In this document: piece by piece, positions 48,037 through 52,715 of the stretch
Position numbering within the stretch: position 1 is the first letter of the stretch
Layout of the letters: every line of letters begins with the position of its first letter
NCBI GenBank assembly: GCA_023078685.1
Contig: JALGAS010000005.1
Span: 3,534,001 to 3,598,000, forward strand
Source: Neopestalotiopsis rosae
Taxonomy: Eukaryota > Ascomycota > Sordariomycetes > Amphisphaeriales > Sporocadaceae
DNA: 64,000 bases
Direction: 5' to 3'
Notes under the pieces: generated by a model
The model's database searches: none
What the model saw: the letters and a program-made list of their open reading frames with translations, nothing else
What the model was told of the DNA's origin: nothing
Program-made: the position numbers and the translations under genes

Positions 48037-51000
48037 ATGGGTCGCGACAATGCCTCTACTACAAGCCTTGGTAACCTCATATCGCAACGATCGCTAAACG
48101 TTTCATTCCATAGCAAATCGGAATCCTTCTGGCCTGAAGGGTGTTTTAATGACCTCTTCACGAGTGCAACAGTTTCCGCTGAGTTATGGCCAGCCAGCGA
48201 CCGGATATCGGTTGAGTCTACCACAGCTAACGCGAAGAGACGAGAATCACTTGTCGCGTTCGTTCTGAAGAATAGTAAAACCACATTTGCTATTCTACTC
48301 TCTTTCCTCAGAAGCGGGGAAGAGCTCCGACAAGCAGTGAGTCATTTCAGAGACGCCGGGTTGGACGACTCCAATCTACCTATCACCTCTCCGGACATCA
48401 AGGCCAGGATCTTCTACAAGCCCGGCAATGGCAACGAATATAGGCAACCATGGTCCGGTTTTAAAGAAAGGAATTTCTGTGATATCTGGCAGTGGAGGTT
48501 CACTGCTCCGGTATTCCATCACGGCCAAAGCTTTTTGGGACTGCGTGACGAAACCATCCTTCCTTTCACAAAGGTCAACAGTCGTGGAGCTGAGGGCTCT
48601 GGGAAATTTGATGACGTTCACGAGGTCATCGTTCATCCTGCCCATATCGGGTCTATTCTTCCTGTGAGCCTTTGCAACATCTTAATTTGTACGCACTTCT
48701 TCTCTCAACAAGCTGACATACAAAGGACAATCGCTCCGTCTCTATCAAGAGACTATACCGCCCCGAGACCGATGATCGAGCCAGACTTGCAAATCTTGAA
48801 AGATCGTGGCGGCAAGAAGTATTCGCACATGAAGAACTCGTCAAGTGTCGACACCCCAACATCATCAAGTTCATAGCGGGCATCACCAAAGGCAATGACC
48901 GCTATCTCATGTGCGAATGGGTGAATGGAGGCAACTGTAAGCGCGACCGAGAGCGAATCCTTTTCCTTTATGGCAAATTTGGAGCTGGAAAATAATTGTT
49001 CACGGAGCCACATGCCCCTATAGTCGAGCCAGCATATGAACCACAGAACAAGCAGATGAACCTGATCAGGAGATGACTGACTCACAATGTGGCAGTACGC
49101 GACTTTTGGACCAAGAACGAAAAGCCATCTCTTACGCAAGCTCTGATCAAAGATGTCATCATTCAGCTCCAAGGGATAAGTGGCGCATTGAAGGTGATTC
49201 ACGGCAAAGGCTTCCGGCATGGTGACCTGAAACCAGAGAACATTGTTCGCCAGGAAATTCTGCCTCGAAATTCTGGTTCCCCCAGGCTTGATGTTGGAAT
49301 ATTTAAAATCTGCGACATGGGCTTGACCAAATACCACATCGAAGCTACTGAACTTCGAAATAAGTCAACAGACACGTGAGTTTCCACCCAAGCGAATTTC
49401 TACGTGTGGACCTAGTCATGCCTTATCTGGCTTCTGTTTGGCCGGCGTCTGCGTGGCAATGGGACGCTGACATAGTTTGGTGATATAGCAGGTTCGCGAC
49501 CTACAGATACGAGCCGCCCGAAGCACTACCACTAGTAAGACATCAGCCATGGTCACGGCGATTTGATATCTGGTCCATCGGATGCATCATCCTTGAGTGT
49601 ATTGTATGGATGGTCGAAGGATCAAACGGACTCAAACGTTTCAATGAGACAATTGTGGACGACTTCGGTCGAGAAGGCCAATACTTCGGATGGGAAAAAA
49701 GAAGAGATAGGCCGATTGTCTTGTATATCCACACAGAAGTGAAAGAGAAGATGAAGTCACTCTCATCACACCCCGTGTGCAAGGCCGGGAAAACCGCTCT
49801 GGGCGACCTTCTCAGGATAGTCGAAACAAGACTGCTGGTGGTTGATCTGGCCAGTACTAACCCTAGATCACCAATCCGTGCAGATTCCGCAAGCCTTAAA
49901 GTGGAGATCGACAAGATCGTAGAAAGGGGGAGTAGGTACTCAGACTACTGGTTGCAAGGTAAGACTCGCGAGGATGTACCAATCCTCCACCCGGCAACGA
50001 CGGTCGCCCCTGCGGCGAGTGAGGGACATCTTGGAAATGTCAAAGGACAGCTTACGACGGGAAGGTCGTCCCTCATTGTCCCCATGCTGACAGGAAGCTT
50101 GAGAGTAGGTTGAGCCCCGGGTCTTGAACCAAAGCGCCTTGGATTTCCAACACTACGTCTGGCTTTCGACAGCTAATAATGTATTTCCAATCTAGACTGT
50201 AAGTGTCTCTGATTCTGAACTACACCGTATCCTTGCTCAGGAGTTGTGCCGCTACTGATGACACATTTGCGCATCCGAACAGGAAGTAAGTACAATCTCC
50301 AGGGGGCGTTTTTTATCAGATTAAGCCATTTCTGACATTCGTGATAGTATGTAAGTGGGACCTGGCGTTCCTACTGATTTCTGTACAACTTGGCACTGAC
50401 CATCGGTACTGCCTGATATCCAGCGTGTGAGTTTTTCGTTGGACGATTTATACTTAACGTGCTTGTTACTAAATGATTTCCAGAACGTAATGCTATCCTT
50501 CCGAAAATGAGCAATTATATACATGGCCAAACTGACCTTTGATTATATATTTATACTTCTACAGACCCAGGTATGTTTTCCTAATTAAGACAATTTGTGC
50601 CTTGTCAGACGAACATACTGACATTGGGTGACTTCTCCGGCAGCTAAGCAACATCTGGAACTTTTCAGTTGACAACATATTTGCGATCAAAGTTGTCCAC
50701 GCCATCGAGCAATCGGCATTAACACCTAACCACACAATAGCAACAAATTATTGTGAAAAATGCCAACGCCTAGAGTTTTGGGCACCTGATTTCAGGTTTG
50801 TGGAAACTTGGGAGGAATTGGAGAACAATCTTCAAGCGTGTGACTTCTGCAAAATGCGATGGGAAATCTGTCGTCATCTGGATCGAAAGGAGTTCCCTGT
50901 TGTCAGATTCCATCACGACCGATCCATGCTCAAGTTGAATGAGAACTACCTACCCGTACTAGCTGTACGCCGCGGCCCAGGTGAGCTCGACACATGCATA

Positions 51001-52715
51001 CCATACACGTGTTGAGCTATGTACTGACAGCGGATTGGTAGACGCGTCGGCAGACAAGTTGAGCCACGTCCAAATTGCATTTCCACAGCTCCCTACAATC
51101 GCAAGTCCCACATACTATGGTATCCTACGGCAGTGGTTAGGGGACTGCGATGCTGATCATCCCGAATGTTCGCCTCAACAGCTCGGTTACCAGCCCAAAC
51201 TACCCACAAGACTTATTCATCTCAGAGGCCAGGGATCTAGTGCCATCAGCATCTACGAAACTCGACCGACTGACACCTTTAACTACGTTGCTCTGTCTCA
51301 CCCGTGGGGCAAAGAGCCGCATTTCTGCACCACCTCGGCCAATGTTGACGCATACCGAAAGGGTATTGACTACGAGACGCTACCGACCACTTTCCGGCAT
51401 GCTGTCGATGCTACTCGCGGTCTTGGCCTTGAATACCTCTGGATTGACTCAATCTGTATCATCCAAGGTGAAGACGGCGACTTTGACGAGGAAGCCAAGC
51501 GCATGGAAGATGTGTTCAGCTCAGCATACTGCGTGCTTGCCACAAGCAGTGCGCGTGGGCAGAACGATGGTTTTCTAAAACCACGCAACCACTCGCGTCA
51601 GTACTTGGCTTTTGATCACGACCCAGGCATGCCTACACTTTACGTGAGCCCCTCCATGGACAATTTCAACGACGATGTGCTGAACGCACCACTGAGCAAG
51701 CGTGGGTGGGTGCTCCAAGAGAGAGCACTGGCACGAAGAACAATATTCTTCACGGAGCGGCAAACGTATTGGGAGTGTGGCAAAGGAGTCAGATGTGAGA
51801 CACTCACCAAAATGGACAAGTGAGTTCCTCTTTCTCCGCTCGCTTCTATCAAAATCATCGCATGATTCATCGTCTCGAAAGGCATTTATGGATGACTAAC
51901 TCAACTTGGCTCACTCTAGCAAGCTTGTATCGTTCCTGGGTGACGCCAATTTCCCATCCAAGCTGTCTAACAAATCAACCTCACGCGGTGAAAAGATACT
52001 CCTCTATGAGGACCTTTATCGCTCATACACGCGCCTCGAGCTCACCCGTATGTCAGACAGGCCTATCGCCATTGCCGGTCTCGAGAAGAGGATCATTCGC
52101 GACCTCGAGGCACATGGCGGCTTTGGCGTATTCGATGACCGCCGCAGCCTGTTGCAGCGCAGCCTCCTATGGCGGCGCGGACGCGAAGTCCCGGCGCTGG
52201 TCAGAATCTTCCCGGCCCCCTCTGCTCTCTCTGTCCCAACATGGTCGTGGATGGCCTACAAAGGCGGTATCGACTACCTCGACCTGCCTCTCGGAGGAGT
52301 GGACTGGCTGTCTTCCACCGAGGCCGTACAGAGTCCATGGGAACCCAAAGGCTCTGGCACGTGGCACACTGGTGACGGGAAAGAGTCCGTGGAGTTGAAG
52401 GGCTGGGCAAGACCTTTTGCAGCAGGGCTCAGCGGTCGAGGGTTGGCCACGAACCCCGAGGAGATCATGATAGTTTATGACGATCCAGATCAGATGAGGG
52501 AGGGGAGAGAGCCCATGTTCGTCGTGGTCGGCAGCGCAAGGAAGAAGAGCGTGCCCCAGGAAGACATTGTGCACTACGTCTTGGTCATTGCCTTGTGTCA
52601 GGGATCATTGCATGTAGAAGACGGAAGCCAGAGGTACGAGAGGGTGGGCGTGGGTCATATGAAGGGCAGGTTCCTCAACCTGGAGTCCCAGCCTCACGCT
52701 GTGATAATTTGCTAG
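48037..52715 (+). CDS. Protein kinase-HET domain fusion with a microexon-encoded linker, 1221 aa
   Basis: Thirteen exons: 48037-48663, 48726-48936, 49096-49375, 49489-50104, microexons 50196-50198, 50283-50285, 50348-50350, 50424-50426, 50484-50486 and 50565-50570, then 50644-50980, 51042-51819 and 51920-52715. All joins keep one frame to the TAG. Residues 1-200 resemble the regulatory region of the neighbouring kinase (RNFCDIWQW...PVFHHG). Kinase: SIK Lys about 217, HGDLKPEN 321-328, DMG 353-355 in place of DFG, PPE about 382-384 and FDIWSIGC about 398-405. After a linker, the microexons code for about residues 579-585. The HET half has a Cys pair (YCEKC, 621-625; ACDFC further on), YVALSHPWGKEP (779-790), YLWIDSICIIQ, FSSAYCVLATSSA and RGWVLQERALARR. 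HET domains drive fungal incompatibility and cell death; a kinase in front suggests signal-controlled activation (inference). Two separate genes are less likely because the HET frame has no upstream ATG. Intron 2 is long (159 bp). Confidence 0.8.
50105..50643 (+). other. Array of seven introns separated by 3- and 6-nt microexons
   Basis: Introns 50105-50195, 50199-50282, 50286-50347, 50351-50423, 50427-50483, 50487-50564 and 50571-50643 (91, 84, 62, 73, 57, 78 and 73 bp). Donors are GTAGGT, GTAAGT, GTAAGT, GTAAGT, GTGAGT, GTAATG and GTATGT; all end in AG and carry CTRAY-like branch sites (for example CTAAT, CTGAC, CTGAT, TACTAAAT). Between them stand ACT, GAA, TAT, CGT, AAC and ACCCAG. Every boundary is phase 0, so each microexon is one codon (the last is two), and skipping any of them keeps the frame. 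Six of the seven introns have an in-frame stop if retained; 50427-50483 (57 nt) has none and could be kept as 19 extra residues. Removal of the whole 539-bp stretch in one step (50105 to 50643) would also keep frame. Confidence 0.7.

Follow-up and report, generated by a model that had tools for sequence, protein, structure and literature searches.

Codon-sized microexons in fungi are known from the nank (NACHT-ANK) genes of Tuber melanosporum (Iotti et al. 2012, cited through Dyrka et al., PMC4986451). In the available part of that source they are presented as a diversification device acting through alternative splicing. Iotti is also listed among fungal microexon work in the accessible portion of PMC11121469. 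Very short exons were described for P450 genes of P. chrysosporium, with 6 bp for the shortest exon (PMC1184071), and for Trichoderma Xlr2 (PMC11121469); runs of single codons are not described in the available sections of these papers. With recursive sites and RS-exons, the junction itself contains the donor; either this donor is repressed or the exon is skipped (PMC6224609, in part). Stwintrons are nested introns of Pezizomycotina (PMC6616335 and PMC12403724, excerpts).

Judged by its sequence signals, one gene of Neopestalotiopsis rosae, located in a window of 64,000 nucleotides (the whole stretch of DNA analysed), has a series of six microexons, five of 3 nt and one of 6 nt. A sequence-only reading knew of no described gene with such a run of single-codon exons. 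This was too strong in view of the truffle nank family (PMC4986451, available part). Both cases are fungal genes of the non-self recognition and cell-death type with several exons of codon size. Unlike nank, as far as the accessible text goes, the gene investigated here encodes a kinase-HET and not a NACHT-ankyrin protein, and its distant paralogs have positions and motif in common. The Pfam search of the 1220-aa protein at E 1e-3 or better gave two kinase families and HET only. What looks new, judged by a limited literature search, is a second fungal family with codon-sized microexons, at conserved positions and with a conserved motif.

Schistosome micro-exon genes, going back to work of DeMarco and colleagues in 2010, reportedly contain microexons of 6-36 nt, encode secreted proteins and generate variation through skipping. 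Frame-neutral microexon runs within one gene are common to both systems. The difference lies in the single codons inside a kinase-HET linker in the fungal gene. A secreted product of the schistosome type is unlikely here, because the architecture is kinase-HET.

As with recursive sites, acceptor and donor are nearly adjacent and stepwise removal is expected. Unlike the sites described in the available part of PMC6224609, a 3-nt coding exon lies between them; no zero-length exon was found, and each of the six sites has a spacing of 3 or 6 nt. Stwintrons, in the excerpts available, share with the locus a complex intervening sequence, consecutive intron-defined reactions and the occurrence in ascomycete fungi, but here neighbouring introns are separated by coding codons. 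None of the seven introns interrupts the signals of another, and each has its own donor and acceptor.

Structure of the gene and its microexon chain

The gene model comprises the following parts.

48037-52715, + strand: kinase-HET gene; uninterrupted predicted product of 1220 aa
48037-48663, 48726-48936, 49096-49375, 49492-50104, + strand: kinase half, four exons
50644-50980, 51042-51819, 51920-52715 (stop), + strand: pre-HET and HET half, three exons

In the 1220-aa protein, Pkinase (PF00069) was found at residues 210-410 (E 2.8e-26) and HET (PF06985) at residues 778-923 (E 1.9e-26). As its HET domain lies C-terminal to the kinase domain, the protein belongs to the kinase-HET family. A homologue search with residues 420-780 gave 19 proteins among 4,681 candidates, and kinase and HET Pfam domains were present in every one of them. 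Because all 19 homologues found carry both domains, kinase and HET as two separate genes were rejected, and independent genes at 48037-52715 appear unlikely. The N. rosae genome has at least 150 HET-domain matches (150 of 350 candidates scored, all above the cut-off).

Between both halves, the chain is arranged as follows.

50105..50195, + strand: intron 1, 91 nt, donor GTAGGT, branch GCTAAT 19 nt before its end
50196..50198, + strand: microexon ACT (Thr), 3 nt, gene model
50199..50282, + strand: intron 2, 84 nt, donor GTAAGT, branch ACTGAT
50283..50285, + strand: microexon GAA (Glu), opening the EYRN match to homologue P0004
50286..50347, + strand: intron 3, 62 nt, donor GTAAGT, CTGAC 12 nt before its end, not a strict RYTRAY
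50348..50350, + strand: microexon TAT (Tyr), the conserved Tyr
50351..50423, + strand: intron 4, 73 nt, donor GTAAGT, branch ACTGAC
50424..50426, + strand: microexon CGT (Arg), 3 nt, gene model
50427..50483, + strand: intron 5, 57 nt, donor GTGAGT, without strict branch site
50484..50486, + strand: microexon AAC (Asn), 3 nt, gene model
50487..50564, + strand: intron 6, 78 nt, weak donor GTAATG, branch ACTGAC
50565..50570, + strand: microexon ACCCAG (Thr-Gln), 6 nt, gene model
50571..50643, + strand: intron 7, 73 nt, donor GTATGT, branch ACTGAC

Thus, the six intervals of 3, 3, 3, 3, 3 and 6 nt are present exactly where the sequence-only reading had placed them. Its intron range of 57-91 nt agrees with the measured 91, 84, 62, 73, 57, 78 and 73 nt, and the gene model of 48037-52715 bears out phase 0 for all boundaries. 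The donors, described there as good, are so in five of seven cases; GTAGGT (50105) and GTAATG (50487) deviate from the GTRWGY consensus. Likewise, branch-like sites were confirmed as strict RYTRAY in five of the seven introns, and the other two have looser ones (CTGAC or TTAAC). In the gene model the spliced microexons read TEYRNTQ. The six intervals are very probably true coding microexons within a single kinase-HET gene, and the seven introns would be spliced separately. The earlier view of a chain of genuine single-codon exons is supported by tests against chance, by the motif in homologues and by paralogs.

Tests against chance and the encoded motif

Splice-like sites might have arisen by chance, either within a single long intron or in the space separating two genes. 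Single AG-NNN-GT sites are common, and 11 of the 19 predicted homologue proteins, among them the nearest one (P0001), are without [D/E]Y at the microexon place. For the stretch 50105-50643 dinucleotide shuffles (n=20,000) were examined with a donor list that was drawn up once the observed donors were known. The longest chain was 0 in 18,385 shuffles, 1 in 1,607 and 2 in 8, and none exceeded 2; the observed chain is 6. The stricter test used the published A. nidulans consensus (GTRWGY and YAG, from the available part of PMC12403724) with a spacing of 40-160 nt and no branch site required. It kept five of the six microexons as a chain of 5, and none of 5,000 shuffles gave more than 1. Chance was rejected on both sets of shuffles. 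Paralogs with matching microexons and the fusion of kinase and HET in the 19 homologues found also speak against it, and we regard it as extremely improbable.

Under the rules of the 20,000-shuffle test, the chain of the kinase-HET gene was the only one of at least 2 on both strands of the window. Chains of at least 2 were absent from eight HET loci (L001-L008) used as controls. In a non-family control of 215,200 nt, both strands, a chain of 2 occurred in one of 26 strand scans and none was longer. Two adjacent 3-nt exons with GTRAGT donors and 40-70 nt between them were searched in the 53.8-Mb genome; 10 matches were found versus 2 in the backward control. Two of them fall in the window gene, five in the gene at L011 (one pair listed twice) and one in the gene at L017, hence 8 of 10 within three kinase-HET genes. 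One match (L018/L029) lies in AT-rich, repeat-like DNA. The remaining one (L014/L024; L024:4449-4451; G000:C11, about 5079948) lies in an amino-acid-permease-like gene. It was rejected as a two-microexon chain, since by reading it has one 3-nt exon GAT in phase 2, spliced by eye as ..YAYSMMIFVAAD...

The spacing between acceptor and donor was also counted. In the nine family linkers (3,039 nt), YAG-N(k)-GTRNGT was counted 18 times for k=3; k=1, 2, 4 and 5 did not occur, and the other k up to 15 gave 0-2 cases each. Spacing 0 was seen in one case. As the linkers were selected as known microexon carriers, this count shows codon-length spacing and not rarity. On both strands of the whole window k=3 occurred seven times, four of them from the microexon chain, and is not special.

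The encoded residues were compared with the homologous proteins, anchored by the post-linker stretch W..xVDN.FA.

P0001: Neopestalotiopsis clavispora G7054_g9799, nearest, 71%
P0002: Diaporthe J7T55_015422, RKYVLVQ at the microexon place
P0004: Oculimacula VTL71DRAFT_10655, DEYRNAE at the microexon place
P0009: VDYGNYE at the microexon place
P0011: FDYGNTD at the microexon place

TEYRNTQ aligns without gaps with the latter four. E, Y, R and N, separate 3-nt exons in the window gene, form one run in the Oculimacula protein. With P0001 excluded and one-residue shifts permitted, 5 of the 2,520 distinct residue orderings of TEYRNTQ (among them the true order) reached its score against 18 homologues; random 3-mer sets from the same stretch scored as well in 2 of 20,000 cases. 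[D/E]Y was found at the microexon place in 8 of 19 homologues, against a mean of 0.85 and a maximum of 5 for shuffled linkers (5,000 trials). Homologues lacking it are read as cases of missed microexons or losses. The model of P0001 reads MLTESVR-IQ-MSDVWN, with IQ alone in place of TEYRNTQ; our guess is that the gene finder retained the last microexon only. In the predicted structure of P0010 (mean pLDDT 66.5) the motif region is unstructured and falls in a stretch (370-413) of confidence below 50, so the motif linker is apparently disordered in this model. The model gives no hint of a binding partner.

Kinase-HET paralogs in the same genome

With the kinase part as query (E 1e-12 or better), 12 places besides the window gene were found: eight kinase-HET genes, three kinase genes and one copy with stops. 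The eight match both parts of the family profile, and family counts therefore cover nine kinase-HET genes. In the fetched stretches of the kinase relatives L060, L061 (+ strand) and L062 the HET part was not found. L063 (G000:C16:592570-593430, - strand) is a broken kinase relative with three TGA and one TAA inside the match. The L011 gene lies near it, and about 7 kb beyond starts the L059 gene.

The linkers were read and aligned by eye from sequence and splice signals, the splice signals of L057 not included. Slashes mark the boundaries.

Window gene: R/T/E/Y/R/N/TQ/LSNIW
L011 gene: R/SSTQN/DD/Y/D/H/P/P/LNKIW
L061 gene: E/Y/Q/F/P/M/LTDIS
L017 gene: E/Y/N/F/LQSESLHESW
L059 gene: T/Y/N/P/QQQDRHNINDVW
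L058 gene: N/Y/(QSHTIKN or N)/P/RTSNLQDTW
L057 gene: T/Y/(read no further than the TAC exon)/QARTIKDAW
L013 gene: Q/T/QSNRPTDAW
L012 gene: DEYDE/IQRRTMKDVW, without microexon, DEYDE in an ordinary exon

By this reading, eight of the nine genes have at least one 3-nt exon at the linker place and seven a lone Tyr-codon (TAY) exon. The acid-Tyr core of TEYRNTQ recurs in the family. Aligned by eye, the window and L011 genes have six boundaries in common at 32% identity: before T/DD, E/Y, Y/R, R/N, N/T and before L.

In strict-consensus shuffles (5,000 each) the chain was reached in none for the window, L011, L017 and L061 genes, in 272 for L059, in 93 for L013 and in all 5,000 for L058. These shuffles back the first four genes but neither L059 nor L058. 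The strict consensus leaves one microexon in L059 and none in L058, and supports the putative chain of L013 weakly. For the candidate microexons of L059, L058, L013 and L057, homology of place is the main argument. Weak donors (GTTCGT, GTAAAT, GTAGGT) follow several of the paralog microexons, and no branch-like site was found in the second intron of L011, the third of L058 and the second of L013. The unusual donor GTTCGT would be needed after CCG (L061:6648-6656) and after AAT (L059:3199-3207), both given in gene-oriented reverse-strand coordinates. For the middle exon of L058, either 21 nt (QSHTIKN) or a 3-nt AAT can be read, the latter preceded by CAAG as acceptor and, at a distance of about 20 nt, by CTAAC; by eye the 3-nt AAT, equal to that of the sister L059, seems to fit better. 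Similarly, the 15-nt exon of L011 could be a 3-nt AAC instead.

The linkers also bear on recursive splicing of one 539-nt intron, in which the 3-mers would be re-splice sites absent from the mRNA. In its favour, hardly any sequence separates acceptor from donor, which also holds for recursive sites. Ordinary ligation, however, would retain a 3-nt exon, and the family linkers prefer spacing 3 (18 cases) to spacing 0 (one). Moreover, the 3-mers encode a motif that is found in homologues and, as DEYDE, in one ordinary exon of L012. Hence this suggestion of the sequence-only reading is disfavoured, and recursive splicing is considered very unlikely.

Proposed splicing of the chain and history of the array

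Two adjoining recognition complexes do not fit on a 3-nt exon at the same time. Short-intron splice sites of Pezizomycotina pair across the intron (PMC6616335, available part). For the coding microexons preferred here, splice sites would be paired across each short intron by intron definition, and the seven introns would be excised as separate ordinary reactions. Adjoining introns would be removed in succession, since a 3-nt exon cannot have both neighbours engaged together. The product would gain T-E-Y-R-N-TQ in a disordered linker just upstream of the pre-HET domain.

All microexons are multiples of 3 nt and in phase 0, so any subset could be skipped in frame. Varying subsets of the six frame-neutral exons might therefore give many linker variants, an alternative that is compatible with coding microexons and that we consider possible, with less than even probability. 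It is in line with the alternatively spliced codon-sized microexons of the Tuber NACHT-ANK genes (PMC4986451, available part) and with the range from 0 to about 7 microexons read in the paralogs. On the other hand, motif and positions recur among paralogs instead of varying freely, and the chain introns are little alike, which gives no sign of recent expansion.

Retention of any single chain intron except the 57-nt one is predicted to lead to a stop at residue 579-597 and to a kinase-only product. The 57-nt intron (50427-50483) has no in-frame stop; its retention is predicted to add 19 residues and to keep the whole protein. HET output could, as a hypothesis, depend on complete splicing. The chain would then act as a gate that slows formation of the death-domain protein, with many transcripts kinase-only or decaying until fully spliced. 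This would also be compatible with coding microexons. The seven required reactions and the predicted stops just past the kinase in six of seven cases favour such a gate, but we purely infer it, and many ordinary introns would truncate the protein similarly; the idea is thought rather unlikely. Only tentatively, and with more doubt than confidence, a Pezizomycotina-wide, ancient and largely unannotated single-codon array spelling a Tyr motif may be proposed, the ordered splicing of which would serve as tunable gate or as generator of linker variants.

With runs of 3-nt exons, the spliceosome is close to its recognition limit, and gene finders and read aligners are likely to lose such exons. A conserved case in several genes would open the order and fidelity of intron-defined splicing to direct tests. 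It would suggest frequent misannotation of kinase-HET genes, as in the P0001 model without the motif. Furthermore, it would raise the question why, in a family of death-domain genes, introns cluster so as to separate the codons of a single motif; a similar clustering of introns is reported, in the part of the literature available, for another fungal self/non-self family.

The history of the array was examined with a midpoint-rooted tree of the nine kinase-HET genes and 19 homologues. The eight microexon-bearing genes, all of one genome, are found in four places: the window gene with P0001-P0007, L011 with P0017 (97/97), L061 by itself on a long branch, and a group of five together with L012 and P0018. 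Microexon labels change 4 times on the tree versus a shuffled mean of 7.1; values as low occurred in 6 of 500 trials, so the labels are less scattered than shuffled ones. Intron positions are common to genes that are distant in the family tree. Together, tree and matching positions argue for either an old array that was lost in places (L012, perhaps the homologues whose motif is contiguous) or parallel gain.

Comparison of the chain introns gave 15 of 630 pairs at the shuffled 99% score, with about 6 expected, and a best score of 24 versus 23 for the top shuffled one. The slight excess could stem from common splice signals. Recent tandem intron duplication and a spreading intron family were considered; they found little support in the 630 pairs.

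No relative was detected in the scan of viral contigs. The scan of genome contigs gave 51 loci, of which L064 (NYXK01000079.1) is the sole one matching beyond the kinase. In this contig, filed as a Deltaproteobacteria MAG, the family's N-terminal part and kinase match in three pieces, as an intron-bearing fungal gene would. By its sequence L064 looks like a fungal kinase without HET domain, and its presence in the MAG is probably due to contamination.
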